Origin: Nigrospora sphaerica
Taxonomy: Eukaryota; Ascomycota; Sordariomycetes; Amphisphaeriales; Apiosporaceae
Reading direction: 5' to 3'
DNA: 64,000 bases
Assembly (NCBI GenBank): GCA_018287875.1
Contig: JAGVVL010000022.1
Location: 2,542,001 to 2,606,000, forward strand
Shown: in pieces, positions 13,688 to 28,866 of the stretch
Layout: each line of letters opens with the position of its first letter
Numbering within the stretch: position 1 is the stretch's first letter
Notes under the pieces: generated by a model
Told to the model about the DNA's origin: nothing
What the model saw: only the letters and a program-made list of their open reading frames with translations
Database searches by the model: none
Program-made: the position numbers and the translations under genes

Positions 13688-16600
13688 ATGGATTACGGCA
13701 AGCTCCGGGCTGCTGCCCTCAGCCACGGCGAAGATGAGGAGGCCGTCACCGTCGACACCAGGGCCCTGATAGACAAGGTCCTTGCCAGATACTCCGGCGA
13801 GTGGACCACGCTTCGCGAGCTCATCCAGAACGCCGCAGACGCCCAGGCAAGCACAGTCAAAATCAAGTGGGAGTCGCATCCTTCCACATCTGTCCCGCTG
13901 CCGTCGACAGCAGACCGCTCTGAACTGCTGAAGCACGTAATACAGCATCACACGTTGCGACGGCTGGTCGTGTCCAACGATGGACAGCCCTTCACCAAGA
14001 CGGACTGGGGCCGACTCAAGAGGATCGCCGAGGGAAACCCCGACGAGACCAAGATCGGTGCCTTCGGTGTCGGCTTCTACAGCGTGTTCGCAGACTGCGA
14101 GGAGCCCTTTGTTAGTTCCGGCAGCGAGGCCATCGCCTTCTACTGGAAGGGGAACGCTCTTTTTACTAGAAAGTTGGTCCTCTCCGAGGAGCAGAGCAGC
14201 CGCGACACGGCCTTTGTGCTGGATTACAGAAACACCACCACGCCCATGCCCAACCTGTTGTCCGTCAGTCAGTTTCTCGCCACGAGCTTGACTTTCGTGG
14301 CTCTCCAGAGGATAGAGTTTTGGATCGATGATTATCAAGTGCTTTCTTTGCAGAAGAAAACGAGCCCGAGCGCCAGCTTGACCCTATCGCGGGATATCGA
14401 TACATCCACCAAGGATCGTCTGATGAAGATCCAACAGGTCGACCGTGCCAGCGCGCAAATCGACGCATCGTTCATGAGTGCCATAGGCTGGAAGCCGCAG
14501 GCGGCTGCCACAAAGACCAGCGACACCTACGGCATAGCCTCAGAAGCGCCCTCGCTCAGAAGCTTCTTCTCCAGGCTGACGGCCGGCACGGCCGCCTCGT
14601 CCAAGGCGGCCAAGGCGGCAAAGGAGGAAAAGGCGGCCCAGGAGGCCATTTCAGAAAATATCACCGCTCTTTCGACCTCCACCATATTCTTAAGAGTCAC
14701 TACGGCCGCCATAAAGACATCCGTTACTGCTGGCTTTTCCGCTGAGCTTGAGCGCGCCACCAAGAAACCGCCGCCCAAGGTGGCCAAGCTTGCCATTCTG
14801 ACGTCGTCCTATGATGAGGCCCAGGCCTCGGAAAGTGCCTCAGGTACGGGAGCGGTGTCAAAAGCAACTGACGTCTTTGCCTCGGTGTTACCGAGTAAGA
14901 AGCCGGGCGGTCGCATCTTCATCGGGTTCCCAACTACCCAGACCACAGGTGCAGGCATGCACATCTCAGCCCCCTCGGTTATACCCACTGTGGAACGCGA
15001 GGCCATCGACCTCAACGCACGCTGGGTACGGAGCTGGAACATTGAGATGCTGCGAGCTGCCGGCATCATGACTCGGCTTGCCTTTGCCCATGAAATGGAC
15101 CAACTGCAACAAAAGTTGCAGCACTCCCTGCCTTCTCCGGGTGGCAAAATTGGACCCGCCGAGGTGAACAAGCATATGCCTGAAGCTTTGCATATCCTAA
15201 ACTCGTTTACATTTGGCGACTCGACGCCCAGTGGTCAAGTCTCGCAGATTATTGAGGAGGCTTTCTGGACCTGCTACAAGAAGCCCTACATAGAGATCTA
15301 CAGCACCCGGGGCGTGCGGCCCACGACACAGGTCCGTATTGGATCCGAGGAACTCAGCAAGTTCGTCGGCGGTATTCCCGTGATACCAGCAGAGCTGAAG
15401 GATCTAGGGTTCGTCAGAAAAGTTACGGACTTCGATCTCATTTCCCATATCACGGTTGATGACGTGCGGCGGGAACTTTCCGAGTACCCCATGAACAAGA
15501 GTCAGCTCGTTGCCTTTATTCAGTGGGCTGCTAAGACGGCAGTCCGAGGCGACTTGGATCCCGCTGACAAGGACCGGCTATTCGACGCCGCTGTTGCCAC
15601 CCTCGCGGAGGAAGGCAGTGAGGAAGGCGGTATCATCCCGTTGGGCACTATCCGCAATTATTTGATTCCGAACAGAATTCCTGCCGGACTGCCGATCCCC
15701 CCGACGACGATTCCATTCGAATTTACGAGCAAATGCACGTCTAATGAGCTGCAAGCCTTGGGCTGGGATCCTCTGGAAATCGTTCCCTGGCTCAGGTTCC
15801 TCCTGGAGTCCGGCCCTCGCCGACCCGACAACCAGAACCTCACCAAGTCGGCGCCATTTGCCATTCATATCCTAGCCGTCTTGTCCAAAGGGTGGGACAA
15901 TATGAGCGTAGGCTCAAAATCTACGGTTGTGTCCTTGCTGCAGGCACACACGGTCATGCCGACCAAATTTGGTATGAAGAAGCCAGCCGAGTCCTTCTTC
16001 CCGTCGGTGAAGCTCTTTGACGATCTGCCCACGATCCAGGGTTGTTCGTCCTTGAAGGACAAGTTCCTCAACGCCATTGGTGTGCGAAAGACGGTGGATC
16101 TTGACACCATCTTCAAGCGGCTCCTGAACCCCCCCAAGGAGGAAGCTTCCGGACAGCCCCAGTGGAGCCATGTTGAGTTGATCAAATATCTTGCCTCTGT
16201 TCAGGCGGATATCCCCTCAGAGGATCTAAGAAAACTCAAGGAGTCACGAATTTGTCCGGCAGAGGAGGAGTCGGGCAAGCAAAATGGAGCATTATATAAA
16301 GTTTCCGAGTTGTTCGAACCCAAGGACACGCTTCGAGCCCTCGACGTCAAGTTGTTGCAGTGGCCGGGTGCTACTGCAGGCGGATATCGGTCGAGCTCGG
16401 CCGAAGGCCAGTTCTTGACCAAACTAGGTCTGCGGCCGTACCCCAGCGTCCCGGAGTTGGTGGAAATGATGTCCTCGCCAGATGTCAGTCTTCGAGCACA
16501 TGCCATGGACTACTACATCAGCTCCCACGTCAGTAACGGATACGGCTCGTTCGATATCAGCTCCAGTCCCAAAGCTTTCTTGCCCCTGGAGGGAGACTCG

Positions 16601-19009
16601 AAGCAGCTTGTGCCCCCGCAAGGTTGCTACACGAACGCAGCTGCCTCGATCATGGGCTTTAGGATTTTGAAAAGAGAGCTCTGGGCCCATGCCAATGTTC
16701 GTATTTATGATACGCCATACGTGTCCAGCCACTAACGAGAGCCATAGAAATTCGGCGTTGCCACCGATCCGCCCATCATGGAATGCGTCAAGCGACTGCT
16801 CAGAAGTCCACCGGCGAACCAGCAGGAAGCCATACCGCTTTTCCAGTACTTTGCATCGCGGCAGAACGATCTACCCGGAGGCCCAATCTTCAAACTTCGA
16901 GAGGCGCCTTTCGTTCCCGTGGTCCGGAAGCGAGGCTCATCCGCCACCCACTCCTCGGATAAGAAGAACGAAATCGTGACGCACATTAGTCCTCGCAATT
17001 GCTTCCTCGGAACTTCGACCAAATTTGGGGATATATTTGACTTTGTCGATTTTGGCCAGCAAGCGAATGCCTTCTTGTTCAGCTGTGGGGCGAAAAGCGA
17101 ACCTTCCAAGCTGGAGATCGCACACGAGGCAGCCAGCGAACCGGCTCGGTTGCTGAGCGTCTTCCAGAGCTCCGAAAAGTACCTCGACCTCCTCAGGACG
17201 CTGGCCGTGGATTTCACCACTTTGAAAAGAGACAAGGAACTTTGGAAAAAGATGAAGTCCTCGCCGTTCCTTCTGGGGTCCAAGGAAATCAGCGCACCGA
17301 AGGACAAACTCGTTGACGTGGAAGAGGAAGAGGGTCCGGTTAAGCATTACCAACTTGCCGCGCCAAATGAGATTATCATTCTGGACGACTACATTGGCTT
17401 CAGACTGTTCAAGGATCGCCTGCTTGTTGCGCCTGAAGAAGACCTGCTGGAGGATTTCTACAAGGCGCTCGGCTCCCGCAGCCTGTCAGAGTTGGTCTCC
17501 GAAGACTTGAAAATCGGACCGCAGTATGAGAAGCAAGACGGGGCCATGTGGCTGCGGAAACACGTCCTCGAGCGATCCAAGATCTTCCTCCACGAGTACG
17601 CCAAGTACAGCCGCGACCCCATCAAGCATGATGCCAAGTGGCTCGAAAAGAACCTCACGGTGGTCGTAGTTCGCTCAGTAGCCCTCCGCCGTACGCTCAA
17701 GGGCACAGGCCAGATGCACACCGAGGAGCGATCTGCTGCCAGCAGCAAGACGGCCGACGGCTGGGTCCTATACGTGGCTCAGAAGTCTTCCCGGCCTGAC
17801 ATGTACCAGGTGGGCCAGGCCATTTGCCAGCTCATTCTGAACCGACCGTCGCAACAGGCGTATACCTTTTTCGAGCCCTTCTTGAAGTTGGAACTATTGG
17901 ATTTGCGGTCGCGGGGGTACAACGTTGACCGAATCCTGCGGGCCAAGGCTGCCGAAGCCAGAATCGCCGAGGAGGAGAGGCGAAAGGCGCTCGAGGACGA
18001 ACAAGCACGTATCCGAGAGCGCGAGCGGCAGTTTCAGCAGAACCAGAGCCAGTCTAGCCAGGTCGCGGCTGCACCGGAGCGAGTGACAACGCCACCTCCG
18101 CGTCAGCGTATGCCTGGTGCCTTCGACCCCCCAGACTCGCCTCCTGAGTCGGCTCCGTCGCAGAATAGAAAGAGCCGAAGCTTGTTCTCGACCCTGTCGC
18201 GCAGGTTCGGCTTCGAGGATGCGAGCAGCGATAAGGACGAGCAGCTCGACAAGTTCCTCGAGCCCTCTCGGAACGGGCAGAATGGCGAGTCGTCCAAGGG
18301 CCCTGTGCAGCCCCCCAGGCCGAACCAGCATGACGGAGACAACGGCCACGTGACAAACCCAGCCATCATCCAACAGAACCTGCTCAACGCGGTCCAGGCG
18401 ACGCGGGGTCATAACTCGTCTTCGCTGTTTGCGCCGCCCACGACGACCGAGGTTAAGGAGCAAGCTAGCTATTGTGACAGTACTCCGTTAGCCAACCTCA
18501 ACTTTGCCGCCGAAGCGTCGAATGGAATGCGCTTCTTTGTGGCTAAGAACCTCTCGGTGGATCTCAGCTCGCTGCTTTCGGGGGTACACAGTCACATTAA
18601 CGCATTCGCCTGGCTACTGCGCGAGGTGGGCGGAGTGTACGCCATCCCGCCATCAGCCCTCCACATCTTCTACGATGAGTCGGGCGGCACCATCGCCTTC
18701 AACTCGTCGGGAAGCATCTTCTGTAACCTGCGCTTCTTCCTCCAGCTGCACTCATCGCAGTTCCATAACCCCAACACGAAGGCCGAGGCGGCTGTTTGGT
18801 GGTGGGTCGTCATCGCGCACGAGCTTGCGCACAACATCATCCAGCTGCACAACGCCGACCACAGCTACTATACCGAGAGCTTCATTCAGGAATACTTCCT
18901 TAAGATGGTGGTGAAGACTGGCGAGCTCGCGCGGGGTGGAGAGAGGGGGCAGCCTGTTCCGAGCGCTGCGGGCGATGCGAACGCCGGCGCCCCGCCCCCG
19001 TATAGTTGA
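13688..19009 (+). CDS. Sacsin-like GHKL-ATPase protein (DUF3684 type) with C-terminal HELAH motif
   Basis: Two exons (13688-16696, 16748-19009) give 1756 residues. The N terminus has the Hsp90/sacsin-type nucleotide-binding fold: LRELIQNAADAQ (N-box), the S-N-D-G-Q-P loop, and KIGAFGVGFYSVF (G-rich lid). The middle is the large fungal DUF3684 region. A coiled segment (about RAKAAEARIAEEERRKALEDE) and a disordered linker precede a compact C-terminal domain containing HELAHNIIQLH at residues 1694-1704. The 51-bp intron has a weak donor (GTTCGT) but a strong CACTAAC branch site 11 nt before its TAG acceptor and restores HANKFGVATDPP. Sacsin-like proteins are thought to act in protein quality control; the role of the fungal family is unknown. 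The HExxH box resembles zinc metalloproteases. Confidence 0.88.
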
Positions 19010-19300: not shown

Positions 19301-20902
19301 TCACTCGTCAGGGGTCCCATGCCCGTTGACAGACGTGTCCCCTGCTTTGGCCAAGCTAGCCGTCATCAAAGGACTATGCATCATCCGGTCCCAGTCATGC
19401 TGGCATTGGCACGTTAGTCTCTCCGTGTGTGTATGTGCGTGGGTGGGTCTCATTGGCCCCCCTCCCTCCGGGCTGGTTCGGAAAGGGGTAGAGAGAAAGT
19501 TGCTCACCATCATGTACGAGTTCGTCTCACTTAGACGAACCTCCTCGCCGGCACGGGTGCGCATCTCGTTCTCGTATTCGTCGATCAGCTCGCTTTGGGA
19601 CGTGGTGGCGGGCCGGCCGAGGAGCTTGACTATTCTCCCGGCATCTTCGAGGGCATGGTTGAGTCCCTGGCCGCGGTCTGATTCTGGTTTATCAGCAGAC
19701 GTGGGGCAATCGGGGGTGGAGAAGGGAGAGAAGGAGGGGTGCGGCGGGCGCACGTACGGTAGGTCATGGGGTGGGCAGCGTCGCCGACGAGGGTCACAAG
19801 GCCGGCGTGGTTGTCCCAGTGGTGCTCGGGCAGGCTGGGGTCCCAATTCGCGTTGGGGGTGTAGTAGACGGTCTCGAGGTCGTCGGGCATCCACTCGTAG
19901 GCGCTGCGGATGGGGTCGGCGTAGCACCGGCTCTTTTCCTTGGACTGGCGCAGGCGCTCGCGCGGTCCCATGACGGCGGCCTCGGCGTCCTGCTCGTCGA
20001 CGGGGGTCTGCCACGAGATGTAGAAGGAAAAGGTCCAGGTCTCGGGGCGGTCGGCGTCGGCGGCGTCGAGTGTCATCACCATGGCAAACATGCCGTCCGG
20101 GTGCACGACGGCGCTGACGACGGGGTGCAAGCGACGCAGGTACAGGGCCTGCTCGCGCGTGTAGCCGGAGCAGTTGATGAAGGTGGCGGCGAGCGGCAGG
20201 CGCTTCAGGGCGGCGCGCTCGGGGCCCAGCAGCAGGGAGCGCACGCGGCTGCGGCCGCCGTCGGCACCGAGCAGCAGGCGGCCGGTGACGGCGGTGCCGT
20301 CGGCAAAGTGCGCCGTCACGGCGGCGGGCTCGCCCGGGGCGGCGTAGGTGATGTCGACCAGCCTCTTGGCGTAGGTGACGTCGATGCCGTCGGCCATGAA
20401 GGCACGCAGGCGCGAGCGCAGGAGGCGGTAGAAGCGCGGGAAGGGCAGGCGGCGCACAATGTCGCCGGTGGCGCCGTGGACGACGGGCACCATGTCCATG
20501 GCGGGGGTCGGGCGATGGGGGTCCGTCTGCGTCTCAGCGATGCGCGCCCATTTCTCGGGGCCCAGCAGGTCGGCCAGGATGGACGAGGACCAGTGGCAAC
20601 CGATGGCCCAGTCCCGGGCCTTGCGCGGCGCGGCCGAGGGGTCCTGCTCAAAGACGCGGTAAGGGACGTTGGCCTGGCCACGGGTGTTAGCACACGGCAC
20701 GGGACGGCACGGGATACGAGGACGGCGGTGCCCCCCTTGCCTTTTTCAGTCCGTGGGCCATGGCCAGGCCACAACTGCCTGTCGGCCGAGGCCACGTCAG
20801 TCAAGTGCTCGCGCTCCGAGGGGGCCGGAGCGACTCACCGGCGCCGATGATGAGCACCGGCAGATCCTGAGGGGGTCGAGATGGTTCGGCGGCGGCGGCC
20901 AT
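19301..20902 (-). CDS. FAD-dependent monooxygenase (PHBH-type)
   Basis: Five exons (20902-20839, 20778-20741, 20673-19758, 19677-19508, 19399-19301) join into 428 residues. The N terminus carries the FAD dinucleotide fold LPVLIIGAGSCGLAMAHGLKKANVPYRVFEQ (written here as one conserved block split by two introns). LLLGADGGRSRVR is the DG motif, and GDAAHPMTYHRGQGLNHALEDA is the second FAD/ribityl motif; splice junctions restore both. Such enzymes hydroxylate aromatic or related substrates with NAD(P)H and O2, often in secondary metabolism or aromatic breakdown. Intron 2 (20740-20674) has GC-AG borders. The substrate is unknown. No transmembrane segment or signal peptide is seen. A 26-bp tandem repeat lies just upstream of the start. 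Confidence 0.9.
20674..20740 (-). other. GC-AG intron in the FAD monooxygenase
   Basis: The exon ends CTGAAAAAG and the intron begins GCAAGG and ends GGCCAG. Splicing here joins HGLKK to ANVPYRVFEQ exactly as in the family; no GT donor nearby keeps the frame as well. Confidence 0.8.
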
Positions 20903-20980
20903 GACGCCGAGAAAGTTGGGGGCGACGGTAACGAAGACGGAGACGGAGACGGGAGACGGTGGGCAAACCCGAGCACGGCA

Positions 20981-21054
20981 GTGCCTGGAGGGCTACGAGC
21001 ACGAAAGTGCCTGGAGGGCTACGAGCACGAAAGTGCCTGGAGGGCTACGAGCAA
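20981..21054. repeat. 26-bp tandem repeat, about 2.8 copies
   Basis: The unit GTGCCTGGAGGGCTACGAGC plus ACGAAA occurs at 20981, 21007 and 21033, with the third copy incomplete. Copies are identical over their shared length, so amplification is recent. It lies about 80 bp upstream of the FAD monooxygenase start codon. Confidence 0.95.
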
Positions 21055-23916
21055 AAGGAAGACGAGAAAGGCGCAGCGGACTAAAGACCAGCGGCGGTGA
21101 TGGAGGAGGGGGTTCCTGGAAAGGTGAGTGCAAGCAACGGCACCGGCGACGGCAGCCGAGCGGCATGGCATCTCCTCGCGCCATCTTCTCCCCCTGTTCG
21201 GTGGGTAGGATCAGACCCGCGGAATGGCCGGCGATCGGCAGCAAGGCGTTAGTGTCGCGAGCGTGCTCCGTTCTTCTGGCCCCTCCGGCCGGGTCCATTT
21301 GCATTTGGAAGCCAAGGGCCAAGGGGCGCCGCTGGGGCGTTTTTGCTGGTGCTCGAATCGTTGCGGCCCTTTAACATCCCTGTCGGCTACTACGGGAAGG
21401 GTTACAGGCTCGGCAGGGCGGGGATTAGGCCTCGTCACGGCGTTTTAACCGTGTTAAGAAACGAGGGCCCGGCGAAGCCATCGTCGGCGTGCCGGCCGTT
21501 TTAGGCCGGACAAAAAACACGCCGAGCCTCCGCGCTCTCGGCCGGGTCGGTTCCGTCGTGTCTTTTTTTGGGAGGGGGGGGGCGATTCTTTGACTGGCTG
21601 TGCCGGCCTAGTCGTCAAGGCTCCAGACGTGTAACCAGTTTTCCGGGACTCGTTGCCAGTACCGGGACGCTGGAAAGGTAGGTACAATCTGTGTACTTCT
21701 TACGTATCCGCGCCTCTATCTGCTACTTAGATGTGCTTAGGCACTCACCTCTCACTACATGTGGTCACCCCTCATGCATTAGGAGGCATGCGTATTCACG
21801 AGCCAGCAAAAAAGCTGCTTGCGACACGCCACGAGCTATGCGAGCGTGCGTACTTACCAATCGACCCTGAGCGCATCCCCGGATGGGTGTCATCAGAAAT
21901 GATTCATCTCTACCACCCGCCTCTCCCCATCTTCGCGCGTTATCTGCGAGGTCAAACAAAAGACGTACCGTGACCTCTGCTGTTGGTACGGCCATGGGCC
22001 TCCCTATCGCCGGGACGTGACAACCTCAGACGGCACGACGATTAAGCCGGCCACCCCCAGGTCCTCTTGTGCGCCAGGCAGCCAGGCAGCCCAAACAGCC
22101 ATGGCGTGCGTGGGGGGCACAGCCGCGCCGGTGTGAGATGAACGATGATGCTGTCTCGCTGTCGCCCCGTAAGGCTGCATTAGAGAAGAGAGAAGAAGGG
22201 GGGAATCGCAGGTAACGTAACATGAAGCCCCTCTGGGCACTTTCCCTCTCACCCTCTCCCTCTCTTTCTCTCGTGCCTACGCACACCCCCGAGAAATGAA
22301 AACCGTTAGTGGCCGTTCACACTCACGTCAGCACAAAGACCCATCACACACCACCACCCCACCACAGCCTATCGTCTGTTCACCATGCCTACGGGGGAGA
22401 TTCGGTACAGATCTGCCAAACTCAGCAAGTAAATAGGATAAGCAGGTTACGAGGATACGATGTACATCTCGTTACCAAACATCTGCAATGTGTGTCAACG
22501 CCGCCTTGGCACCTCGTGGCACCCTTGGCTCCGGTCGAGACGGCGCTTCCTACTGTTTCCAGTCAAGTTCCTCGACGTGTCACAGCAGCCAGATCACTCC
22601 AAACTCCATGGCCCCGAGGCTCCGAGCCAAGGAGGCCTCATTCAGAGCCGGAATTGGTACGGCAGGACAGCCCTGTCAGGATTTGGGTGCGGACCCCCAT
22701 ACACAACCGCTTCTCTTACCCGAACTGCCTTGCGTATGCAAAACCCAGCACCTGGCTGACTATCTCGACGTGAGATCCAAGTTGGGTAGGCCAGCGGTAG
22801 GGAACGTTTGTATCGTCCTCGCCGGCCGGCGCTGACTCATTCGGATGCCGGGTACCCTGTTGCGTGGAAAGGCATCCATCACTTCATCCTGCGGTAGTTG
22901 CGGTGAAAGGCAGGAGCAATCCGGCCCATGACTGTTCGCTCGGCCATAGCCGATCAGACACCAGCGAGAAGCATTCCGGTTGGTCAAACCCCGCCGTATC
23001 CCGAACGACGTGCAGGATATGAATAAGAGGTAGGCAGGGTATCTGCCATGTACTTATTTCTTACCAGCCCACCGAGCAAGACCCAAAGTACCTTGCCTGC
23101 ACTGCCACGGCACAAGTTCCGTCTGCTACTTTTAGCTGGCTGCGAGTCGGACGAGTCAACCCTCCCCCAAGAGACAACCACCCCCCATCTCACCCCTCGC
23201 TTTCATCCCGACTTCCACACCCAGTTTCTATTTCCAGGCACGGATCCGCGGCTCGCTTCGCATGTGTCCATCACCGTCCTGCTATGTCAGCAACCACATG
23301 GCTGTTCGGTGTCTGGTTCTTGGGTCCTACGTGCTTCGCCTGTTCCACTCCCCTGCCCTTCAGCCCTACGACGACAGGCCCCCCCTTGATGGGATGAGAG
23401 TACACGCCTGCTCTGCCTCGCTTCCTCATGCTCCCTCTCTGTCTCCTGCCGCTTCCCTCCTTTACCTGCCTTCCCTGCCTTTCTCTCTCCATTCTTCGAA
23501 ATACCGAACTCGGCACCCTGGCCCCATCCTAGGCCCGCTCCACCAACCACCATGCCCCTGCTGACTATACAGCAGCCCGGATGCTAGCTACTCACGGTCC
23601 TGGTCTGACGTGCGAGAGCTCGCCGGCTGACTTAGTGACCGACCAGCTTGGGCCACAATATGCTGATCCATCCCGCGCCTCGGGGCTTGGACGTTGTAGC
23701 TGATGGCTGGTCCGGCTTTGAGGCTCAGATGGGGGACAAAGAGCAGGGGGGGCCACGGGGGACACGACGCCAGGCAGCATCCTCATGGCCTTACACCAAC
23801 ACCGCCGGTGGCTGACCCGGGCTTCTGAGTGCTGCTATTCGTTACAATGCTGCTGTACCGTACGAACTATCCCGCCAGCCCTGCGTGCTTCACCTTCCGC
23901 CGCGGCCCGTCCGTAG

Positions 23917-23924
23917 TATATAAA
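23917..23924 (+). promoter_or_regulatory. TATA box of the repeat-peptide gene
   Basis: A perfect TATATAAA lies 209 bp before the ATG at 24126. There is no ATG between the two, so 24126 is the first start codon any transcript initiated from this box would contain. Confidence 0.65.
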
Positions 23925-24125: not shown

Positions 24126-24385
24126 ATGGCGGCCTTGACTTTTATCGCCTGCCCCCAGGCCCTTTTCGGCCGCTCTGGCTACAACAAGGACGGTGACGAT
24201 GAAGACGATAAAAAGTGCTTCGGCCGCTCTGGCTACAACAAGGACGGCGACGAGGAAGATGACAAGAAGTGCTTCGGGTTAGGACACGCTGCTCCACCAT
24301 CCTAACGAAATACTGTTCCACTGATGCCCTCTACAGTCGATCTGGCTACAACAAGGATGGGAACGATGACGACGAAGAAAACTAG
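24126..24385 (+). CDS. Small repeat-peptide precursor, three FGRSGYNKDG units
   Basis: Two exons (24126-24277, 24337-24385) join into 66 residues. After a 13-residue, mildly hydrophobic N terminus (MAALTFIACPQAL) come three units of FGRSGYNKDG followed by an acidic run; units 1 and 2 end in DDKKC, so KK-Cys separates them, and the last ends DDDEEN. The 59-bp intron (GTTAGG...CTACAG, with CCTAAC branch site) splits a Gly codon and restores KKCFGRSGYNKDG in the third unit. ATG context ACACAATGG is good, and the start is the first ATG after the TATA box. The layout recalls repeat peptide precursors cut at dibasic sites by Kex2, such as pheromones or fungal RiPPs, but the leader is too short for a confident signal peptide. 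I do not recognise the family; the function is unknown. Confidence 0.75.
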
Positions 24386-24834: not shown

Positions 24835-26684
24835 TTACTTTCCAACACAAAATCTGTTTGCAAGTGTCAGCCCGCAATGCGACCTAATTTTGGCTCAAGT
24901 TGACCCTTGAAACTCACTTCTCGAAGATGACGCCCAGGACTTCCTCCACATCACCGGCTTCGCCGCGGCCGGTAATTCGAGCCAAGCAATTGGCGGCATA
25001 GCGAAGGTCTTCGGCCGCCACCACAAAGTTCAATTCGTCCGCGGCTTCCTCTGAAACGGTGTTGCCGACGTAGTCCTCGAGGTGCTTCCGACATTGCACC
25101 AGTAGCTGCCGCTGCCGTTCGGTTACACCGTGCAGGTCCTGCTGCTCAGCTGGCAGCGCCGTCATATCCGAAAATAGCGAAGCCAGCCCGTCCACCACCC
25201 CATGAAGGCCACCCGGGTCCCGACTGTTGGCCCGGCGGCCCTGGGCTTCCTTGCACGAAATCAGGAGGGGCTGCCTCGGAACCCCTTCCAACTTGTCCAG
25301 GACCGAGGCCTGAAAGTCTTGAATTAGGTCCGTCAGCTCGGCGCCTGTCATACGATCTCGCTTGTTCACGACGACAAGGCCTCGTCCCACGGTCTGGAGA
25401 AGCTCGAGAGTCTCGGCGTCGTATTGTATGGTCAGGGCGCCCGATGCGTCCCGCTCGACAGACGTGAGTACCATGACGACGTCGGACTCCATCGCCTTGG
25501 TGCGCGCTCGTCGGATCCCTTCTCGTTCGACTGGCCCAATAGGGACAGCATCCGGCGCAGAGACTGGCGCGCGGCTATCGACACCCCTGAAGCCCGCCGT
25601 GTCGGCAAAGGTGCACAGGTAGCCGCGAATATCGAGATGGGCCTCGACTATGTCGCGGGTGGTGCCCGCCTCGCCCGAGACGATGGACGCTTCTCTGCCC
25701 ACGACCAGGTTCATCAACGAGCTTTTCCCCGCATTGGGTGGCCCCAGCAAGGCGATGCGGATGCCGTTCCTGAGGAGTTCGCTGCGCTGGCTGGCCTTTT
25801 CGTGCGCGTCGATGCTGAGGAGGATGGCCTCGACCTGGCTGGAGACGTTGGCCAAGAGTTCGACGGGCGATTCGTCGAAGTGCTGGTCTTCGGAAAAGTC
25901 AATGATAGCCTCGATCTCGGCGCGGGCGTCGAGGAGCTTCTGTCGCCACTCGTCATAGGCACGGCCCAGCGCGCCGGTTGCGCCACGGACGGCGGCACGT
26001 CGCTGATGCTCGGTCTGGGCGGCGAGGGTGTCGCCCAGGGACTCGACCTGGGCCAGATCGAGCCGGTCGTTCAGGAAGGCTCGCTTGGTGAACTCTCCGG
26101 GCTCGGCATAGCGCACACGGCGGACGGCAGCACAGGCGGGGATAGCGGATAAGACGGCTTTCACTGTCGCGCTTCCACCGTGTACGTGTAGCTCCAAAAC
26201 ATCCTCGCCCGTTACCGTCCGGGGGCCGGGCAGATACAGCACCATGGCGCTGGCATCCAAGACGTCGGCCCCGTTGGACCGGGGATGTAGCAGGGTCCTC
26301 ACGACAACATGGCGCGCCTTGGGCAGAGGCTTCGACGGACACAAGCCGTGGTAGACCTGGCGAAGTACAGTCAGCTCTGTCTGCCCGCCATCACTGACTG
26401 ACGGGACCGTTGGTTTTCACCTCTTGGCAAGCCGGGCCTGAAACGCGGATGACGGCTATACCAGCAGGGCCCTGCCCCGTGGAGAGGGCGTAGATGGTGT
26501 CATTTTCCAAGTGAAGGCTGAAGGCACGCAATCCCGATGCCTCGGCCAATCGAACCGGTGTTCTGGGCCTCGGACGGCACACTGTCCGAGGCACTCCTAG
26601 GGCGGCTCTGACAGGGCTGGCAGCGTGAAGGCTGGTTCTCGGCACACGAGTTGAAACCGCCCCGGCTATGTATCGTCGTAGCAT
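24835..26684 (-). CDS. MSS1: Mitochondrial tRNA modification GTPase MSS1 (MnmE/TrmE family)
   Basis: Three exons (26684-26421, 26356-24918, 24853-24835) encode 573 residues. The Arg/Ala-rich N terminus (MLRRYIAGAVSTRV) suits a mitochondrial targeting sequence. The TrmE-N folate-binding domain starts at DTIYALSTGQGPAGIAVIRVSG and includes GEDVLELHVHGG. The G domain has GPPNAGKSSL (G1), GTTRD (G2) and DTAG (G3). The last exon has only 19 coding bases and supplies the C-terminal KFCVGK, the diagnostic C-x-G-K motif of the family; without it the protein would end abruptly at IFEK. MSS1 with MTO1 modifies the wobble uridine of mitochondrial tRNAs. It is divergent from MAK16. Confidence 0.95.
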
Positions 26685-27421: not shown

Positions 27422-28866
27422 ATGGCGTCCGACGAGATCGTTTGGCAGGTTATCAACGTGCGCGCGCCCCAACCTCTTGCTCTTGTTGGCCACGAGCGCG
27501 ACTGACCCGATTCATAGCAACAATTCTGCTCCTTCAAAATCAAGCTGTACGATCCCAACCTGCCACACGGTGCTCGAGGGAACTGACTGACAAACAACTG
27601 TAGCAACACCAAGGCCCAGACCTTCTGCCGGCAAGTTCGATTCGCCTCGACCGGTGACCCTGATTCTGACCGAAAGCCAGGAATGAATACAACATTACCG
27701 GACTTTGCGTATGCTATTTTCCTAGCCACCTGTGCTGACTGTCTGCTAACATACTGATAGTCAAGGCAAAGCTGTCCGTTGGCCAATTCGCGTAAGGATT
27801 GATTGTGACACCCGACGTCCGCTCCGACGAACTAACCCGTCGATTCCAGGTTACGCCACAGTTCGAGCTGGCGCCAACGGCACCATATACTTGTACATGA
27901 AGAGTAGGCTGGCGTTCCCCAGCCTTGCGCCGCCGCGTTCCCGTGCTGACCGACTATCTTATAGCAATTGAGCGCGCGCATCTGCCCTCCAAACTATGGG
28001 AGAGAAGGAAGCTGAGCGCAAACTACCAGACTGCGTAAGGCGCTACCAGCACTTGCCCACCTCCCTGTGGCCGTCGCCGTTTTGCGGGTTGCTAATCGGG
28101 CGAGGTACAGGCTCAAGCAGATAGACGAGTGGCTTATGTATTGGCCCAAATTCTTGCAGCACAAGGCCAAGCAACGTCTCACTCGACTCGTGCAAGTCGT
28201 GAGTCTTGACCCCCACCCGTGAATTGAAGCGACTGGGATTTGACAAGTGCGCAGGCAATCCGATCCCGCCGCCTGGCTAAAGAAGAGGCCCGCCTTGGCG
28301 AGACGTTGGTACCTAAGATGGCGCCCAAGATCCGGAGACGCGAGGAGACGCGAGAGCGCAAGGCCGAGGTAGCGGCGAAACTCGAGCGGACCATCGAGCG
28401 AGAGCTGTTGATGAGACTGCGCGAGGGCGCCTACGGCGACCAACCCCTGAACGTCAGCGAGTCCATTTGGAAGAAGGTGCTTCACGCCATGGAGCGCGAG
28501 GGCGAAGCGAGCCGTGACAAGGACATGGATACGGGCATCGAGGAGGAGGGCGAAGAGGAGGCCGACTACGAGATGGAACACGAGGAAGACGACGGCGCCG
28601 TCGAATACGTCAGCGACATCGAGGAGAGCGACGAAGACGACGACATCGACGATATCGAGAGCTGGCTCGGTAGTGACGACGACGCCGCCGAGGACTCGGA
28701 GAGCGAAGACGATGCCAGCGAAGAAGAGGCGCCCAAGAAGCCGGCCCTGGGCGACAAGCGAAAGCGAGGCGGCCCGGCACCGCGCCAGCCCAAGAAGGTT
28801 GCTCGACGGAAGGGCGAGAGAGAGCGGGAAGTCGAGTACGAGCGTGGGCGCGATCTTGCATTCTAA
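27422..28866 (+). CDS. MAK16: Ribosome biogenesis protein MAK16
   Basis: Nine exons (27422-27457, 27518-27546, 27604-27630, 27681-27708, 27761-27791, 27850-27903, 27965-28034, 28111-28198, 28255-28866) join to 324 residues. The assembled N terminus reads MASDEIVWQVINQQFCSFKIK, then TKAQTFCRNEYNITGLC, SRQSCPLANSRYATV, IYLYMKTIERAHLPSKLWE and KQIDEWLMYWPKFLQHKAKQRLTRL, close to yeast Mak16. The conserved cysteines (FCSF, FCRN, GLC, SCPL) are intact. The C terminus is acidic and then Lys/Arg-rich, typical of nucleolar factors. MAK16 acts in early 60S assembly with Rpf1, Nsa1 and Rrp1. Intron 3 (27631-27680) has GC-AG borders. The first eight exons are very short; only the last would be found by simple ORF search. 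Confidence 0.95.
27631..27680 (+). other. GC-AG intron in MAK16
   Basis: The exon ends TGCCG and the intron starts GCAAGT and ends AGCCAG; joining gives TFCRNEYNITG, an invariant MAK16 block. GCAAGT is the usual donor of GC-AG introns. Confidence 0.9.

Follow-up and report, generated by a model that had tools for sequence, protein, structure and literature searches.

Amu1/Par32 of yeast is, in the accessible part of PMC4501750, predicted to be disordered; its orthologues carry three to six GRGGAGN motifs, the motif arginine is required for interaction with Mep1 and for inhibition of Mep1 and Mep3. KEPs are defined, in the portion of PMC6339444 that is available, by a signal peptide, internal repeats (three or more in the pipeline used there) and Kex2 sites between the repeats, and for dikaritins the criterion is a UstYa (PF11807) gene close by. 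In a window of 64,000 nucleotides of Nigrospora sphaerica DNA (by which we mean the whole stretch analysed), a small gene shares features with both groups. Like KEPs, alpha-pheromone and ustiloxin-type precursors, its product contains near-identical repeat units, three in number, with dibasic pairs between them. Like Amu1/Par32 (DUF3602, PF12223), as far as that protein is described in the accessible text of PMC4501750, it is fungal, predicted to be disordered and built on a repeated Gly-Arg-x-Gly motif that ends in Asn and varies in number. The motif itself differs, GRSGYN being one residue shorter than GRGGAGN and containing Tyr, and the protein has 66 residues as compared to 294 in yeast Amu1. 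Membership in DUF3602, which is recognised by a PF12223 match or GRGGx[AG]N repeats, was rejected: none of 22 members of the protein's own family matches PF12223. A comparison by hhalign to one DUF3602 protein of the same genome returned a probability of 0.1 percent, with the limited power of a single-sequence template; the genome holds separate PF12223 matches, five of six over the cut-off.

Re-reading of the sequence agreed with the coordinates given in a preliminary description of the gene: 24126–24385, two exons and three FGRSGYNKDG units, with the TATA box in place upstream (Table 1). The leader had been put at 13 residues, a count that holds for the residues before FGRSGYN, while 14 precede the first GRSGYN; it lacks a basic n-region. 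The intron interrupts the Gly codon of the third GRSGYN and contains a branch-like CTAAC at 24302. As a 54-bp tandem repeat the gene heads the 12 tandem-repeat rows reported for the window (score 191, 91% matches). Between units 1 and 2 there are five differences in 54 bases, every one at a third codon position and a single one altering the residue (D to E). Over the 30 bases that encode FGRSGYNKDG, unit 3 departs from unit 1 and from unit 2 at four positions each, all third-position and silent. Such third-position differences are the pattern expected of a selected protein sequence and, together with the many relatives, make the gene look coding as judged from sequence. The listed relative of highest identity, P0006 (90%, with 77% of the query covered), stops right after KKCFG, exactly where exon 1 ends, as an intron-blind gene caller would produce. 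Elsewhere in the window, a second tandem repeat (20970–21053; 26 bp, 3.2 copies, 96% matches) lies within an ORF span at 20901–21374, and two ORFs of a large DUF3684/sacsin-type protein occupy 13688–19009.

Table 1. Features of the GRSGYN gene and its neighbours (window coordinates).
Feature	Position	Strand	Basis and remarks
TATATAA box	23917..23923	+	Sequence; ~0.2 kb 5' of the ATG; putative function
Exon 1: leader MAALTFIACPQALF, units 1 and 2, beginning of unit 3; ATG at 24126	24126..24277	+	Sequence and homologues
Leader, 14 residues, in exon 1	24126..24167	+	Sequence
GRSGYN core, unit 1	24168..24185	+	Codon-pattern match, genome coordinates G000:C13:2566168-2566185
GRSGYN core, unit 2	24222..24239	+	Codon-pattern match, genome coordinates G000:C13:2566222-2566239
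Intron, 59 nt, GTTAGG...CTACAG	24278..24336	+	Sequence and protein continuity with homologues
Exon 2: remainder of unit 3, then NDDDEEN as acidic tail and a TAG stop	24337..24385	+	Sequence
tRNA-modification GTPase, MnmE/TrmE type	24914..26344	-	Pfam TrmE_N, MnmE_helical
Mak16 match	28321..28659	+	~4 kb downstream of the GRSGYN gene

A search of 5.8 billion proteins, confined to candidates with 5-residue words in common with the query, returned 139 relatives at E ≤ 10 (best E 1.3e-32). The best 120 of these 139, together with the window protein, make up the 121 proteins of what we call the first family, and all counts given for it refer to this set; the further relatives found only with a profile of 22 members (at least 320 matches among 7986 candidates scored) enter none of them. 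An organism name is attached to 76 of the best 120, and all 76, among the matches listed, fall in taxa that we take to be Sordariomycetes: Xylariales and allies, Glomerellales, Hypocreales, Sordariales and single genera of other orders. A taxonomy look-up placed Thozetella, Phialemonium, Coniochaeta, Magnaporthiopsis, Anthostomella and Truncatella in this class, and the genera among the matches listed also include Neurospora (the homologue P0057), Fusarium, Colletotrichum and Xylaria. Among the same matches only one deposited name states a function, 'Protein MAK16, partial' for P0014 of Pestalotiopsis. Since a Mak16 match lies downstream of the window gene, this name suggests a label borrowed from the adjacent gene and a long-standing gene order, a hint of synteny that consists of this single name. 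The other neighbour, of MnmE/TrmE type, is presumably MSS1-like.

The preliminary description knew of no described family with this core, and the searches bear this out. Pfam gave no match better than E 0.08 to the 22 members, neither NCBIfam nor the PDB sequences matched the window protein, and in the PMC literature, the only literature covered, the motif strings and 11 locus tags of relatives were not found and topic searches returned nothing on point beyond PMC4501750. GRSGYN family 1 is thus a conserved family of small proteins for which no description was found in the PMC literature or Pfam.

Comparison of the 121 proteins locates their conservation. The core reads exactly GRSGYN in 358 of 365 copies, an identity that the shared 5-residue words needed by the search have partly selected for; copies beyond those words were free to vary in each protein. 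Column conservation is 98–100% within the core and then falls to 85% for K, 75% for D and 62% for G, after which an acidic run varies in length and letters. Linkers likewise vary in sequence and length, with a core-to-core period of 15–22 residues in 220 of 244. Loss of the repeats among orthologues would have spoken against the gene; the relatives keep them and, as anticipated, in variable number: two units in 28 proteins, three in 63 and four in 30. At the N-terminus, a Met stands 12–17 residues before the first core in 115 of the 121 proteins (as residue 1 in 100, internal to a longer gene model in 15) and is missing at this distance in six. Leaders have 15 residues in 74 proteins and 14–17 in 98, the commonest starts being MAAF (51), MAAT (15) and MAGF (14). 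The window protein has the family's Met at 12–17 residues, two to four cores and acidic linkers. What is conserved, as read from the alignment, is therefore GRSGYN itself and a short MAAF-type leader; the KK-Cys spacing, which had been described as separating the units, is local. Three gene models have a segment lost or broken at the first GRSGYNK (P0069, P0111 and P0091, compared to P0014, P0033 and P0037, respectively), which suggests introns at or within the cores in some species.

A near-invariant core on freely varying acidic linkers, in variable copy number and with no predicted fold, is, on sequence and model evidence, the pattern of a multivalent linear motif. AlphaFold2 prediction of the relative P0013 from 37 sequences gave a mean pLDDT of 56.5, a pTM of 0.11 and no secondary structure; the protein is probably disordered, although a low pLDDT from a short protein and a shallow alignment is a weak indicator. 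We give about an even chance to the reading that the product of the window gene is disordered, acts inside the cell as a multivalent linear-motif protein and works in the manner of yeast Amu1/Par32, though it stands outside that family. Such a small acidic protein would remain inside the cell and display two to four GRSGYN short linear motifs on acidic spacers, each copy probably docking onto one conserved putative partner. Weak copies in series would gain avidity, and through this avidity the array would serve as a multivalent adaptor, a tether or a competitive inhibitor.

Arrays of the same hexapeptide occur elsewhere in the genome. Protein and codon-pattern searches located five more multi-copy GRSGYN loci (C33:3717163, C11:131617, C11:741946, C13:350531 and C28:16503). 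The codon pattern matched 19 times as compared to 13 for a reversed-pattern control, so that the raw count by itself barely exceeds the control. Exact GRSGYN accounts for 14 of the 19, with 12 in the six multi-copy loci (the window gene and the five others); the two single copies, at C1:1341258 and C10:2731769, are within chance expectation (3.6 in six frames). Candidates rejected as GRSGYN loci were C1:1255078, which reads LLYGYNKDG, and L049 and L050, neither of which contains GRSGYN in six frames. The five loci (L037, G000:C33:3712500-3722400, and L038–L041) hold array genes of a secreted type, and classical-looking signal peptides such as MKTRTISFLLASLGLGVLAAP are found in the proteins of three. 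At L038 and L039 (C11:741946 and C13:350531) the repeats are open and a signal-like leader lies in a different frame; we read these as decayed copies or as loci with an unrecognised intron. Four of the five loci are segmental copies forming two near-identical pairs, L038/L039 being 98% identical and L040/L041 99.9% identical over most of 10 kb. Neighbouring ORFs include a GH18 chitinase, a CVNH and a Fringe-like protein at L038 and a Fringe-like protein at L040, and L040 and L041 contain a reverse-transcriptase-like ORF recognised by eye only.

A profile of two proteins from these loci, scored against 757 candidates, matched 19 database proteins at E ≤ 10 (five at E ≤ 0.01), and the 19 matches (P0121–P0139) plus the two own proteins define a second family of 21, for which, too, we found no published description. 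Among the matches are GRSGYN arrays from Cytospora, Diaporthe, Colletotrichum and Schizothecium (E 2.2), Cytospora and Schizothecium being Sordariomycetes by taxonomy look-up. At least one exact GRSGYN is present in all 19 database proteins and at least two in 17; over the 21 proteins 76 of 82 cores are exact, in two to eight copies when near variants are counted. The two families share GRSGYN cores and an acidic context. They differ in that the leaders of the second are mostly signal-peptide-like, whereas those of the first are short and mostly weakly hydrophobic; in that the residue before the core is D in 57 of 82 second-family copies but mostly F, Y or K in the first; and in that second-family linkers are of types such as SVEVxARD or KER/KRE, unlike those of the first. 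Two Colletotrichum proteins, P0122 and P0135, carry six and eight cores (counted by eye) after an internal hydrophobic segment; since this segment takes the place of an N-terminal signal peptide, they are possibly membrane-anchored.

The core stands in proteins with apparent signal peptides, which suggests that the motif, in those proteins at least, works outside the cell and raises the question of whether the first family also does so, either leaving by an unconventional route or by means of a short leader that is functional after all. We consider this unlikely. In its favour are the exact core shared with the mostly signal-peptide-like family, the proteins of both families that end with a core (26 of 121 and 12 of 21) and an hhalign match between the two profiles (probability 97.7, E 1.7e-12); this match, however, spans 29 columns by way of the core, and the second family was gathered with words that include the core. 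The link may reflect common descent, motif exchange or convergence. We gauged secretion by a proxy, the best 12-residue hydropathy near the N-terminus, which has a median of 0.96 in the first family (at least 1.8 in 4 of 121) and 2.02 in the second (at least 1.8 in 14 of 21). The mostly weak leaders of the first family argue against export; the window protein, at 1.65, lies well above its own family's median and above six of the 21 secreted-looking entries, and since it overlaps both families the proxy gives no clean separation for it.

It is rather improbable that the repeats are mere filler and the protein an acidic one of stress or hydrophilin-like type, in which bulk charge and disorder would count and GRSGYN would be just a slowly diverging repeat. 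Both the net charge (-8 in the window protein, family median -5) and the low-confidence fold would fit such a protein, but the negative charge resides in the linkers, which vary, and not in the core, which hardly does.

The preliminary description had favoured a Kex2-processed peptide, and we now regard a pheromone or dikaritin-type RiPP precursor of this kind as very improbable. The window protein itself has KK between its units, and dibasic pairs occur in 53 of the 244 first-family linkers (28 KR, 21 KK, 3 RR and 1 RK); the remaining 191 lack them, and only 16 of 121 proteins have a pair in every linker, so that dibasic sites are not kept as a family trait. By the hydropathy proxy the family's leaders mostly lack the form of a signal peptide, less clearly so in the window protein. 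Among the matches listed, no UstYa match at E ≤ 0.001 lies nearer than 1.33 Mb to the window gene, on contig C13; the genome contains at least 52 such matches, the nearest of those listed to any GRSGYN locus being 47 kb away. Section 10 of PMC6339444, in its available portion, names conserved KEP cores, of which GRSGYN is not one, and neither GRSG nor SGYN was found in the accessible main text of PMC7329392. The second family offers the Kex2 idea a partial rescue: dibasic pairs occur in 14 of its 61 linkers, and KR or RR directly follows cores in 3 of the 19 database proteins (P0122, P0132 and P0135), behind three cores each in P0122 and P0135. Finally, an EF-hand-like calcium binder, suggested by the local likeness of NKDGDDEDD to a loop, was rejected as scarcely credible, with 0 of 290 twelve-residue stretches from the core Asn matching a simple EF-loop pattern.

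Beyond the intracellular multivalent array that we prefer lies a bolder and tentative proposal, which we hold to be unlikely: that one recognition code, GRSGYN, serves both inside and outside the fungal cell, with a conserved intracellular array and more variable secreted arrays addressing the same ancient putative partner, the two competing or signalling and the secreted ones serving as mimics or as messages between cells. That a hexapeptide hardly changes across Sordariomycetes, in a protein with no apparent structure, makes a conserved partner probable, and the Neurospora homologue makes the motif question accessible. If the secreted arrays share that partner, they would amount to a code for signalling or effector function that has gone unrecognised in fungi although it is present in many genomes.
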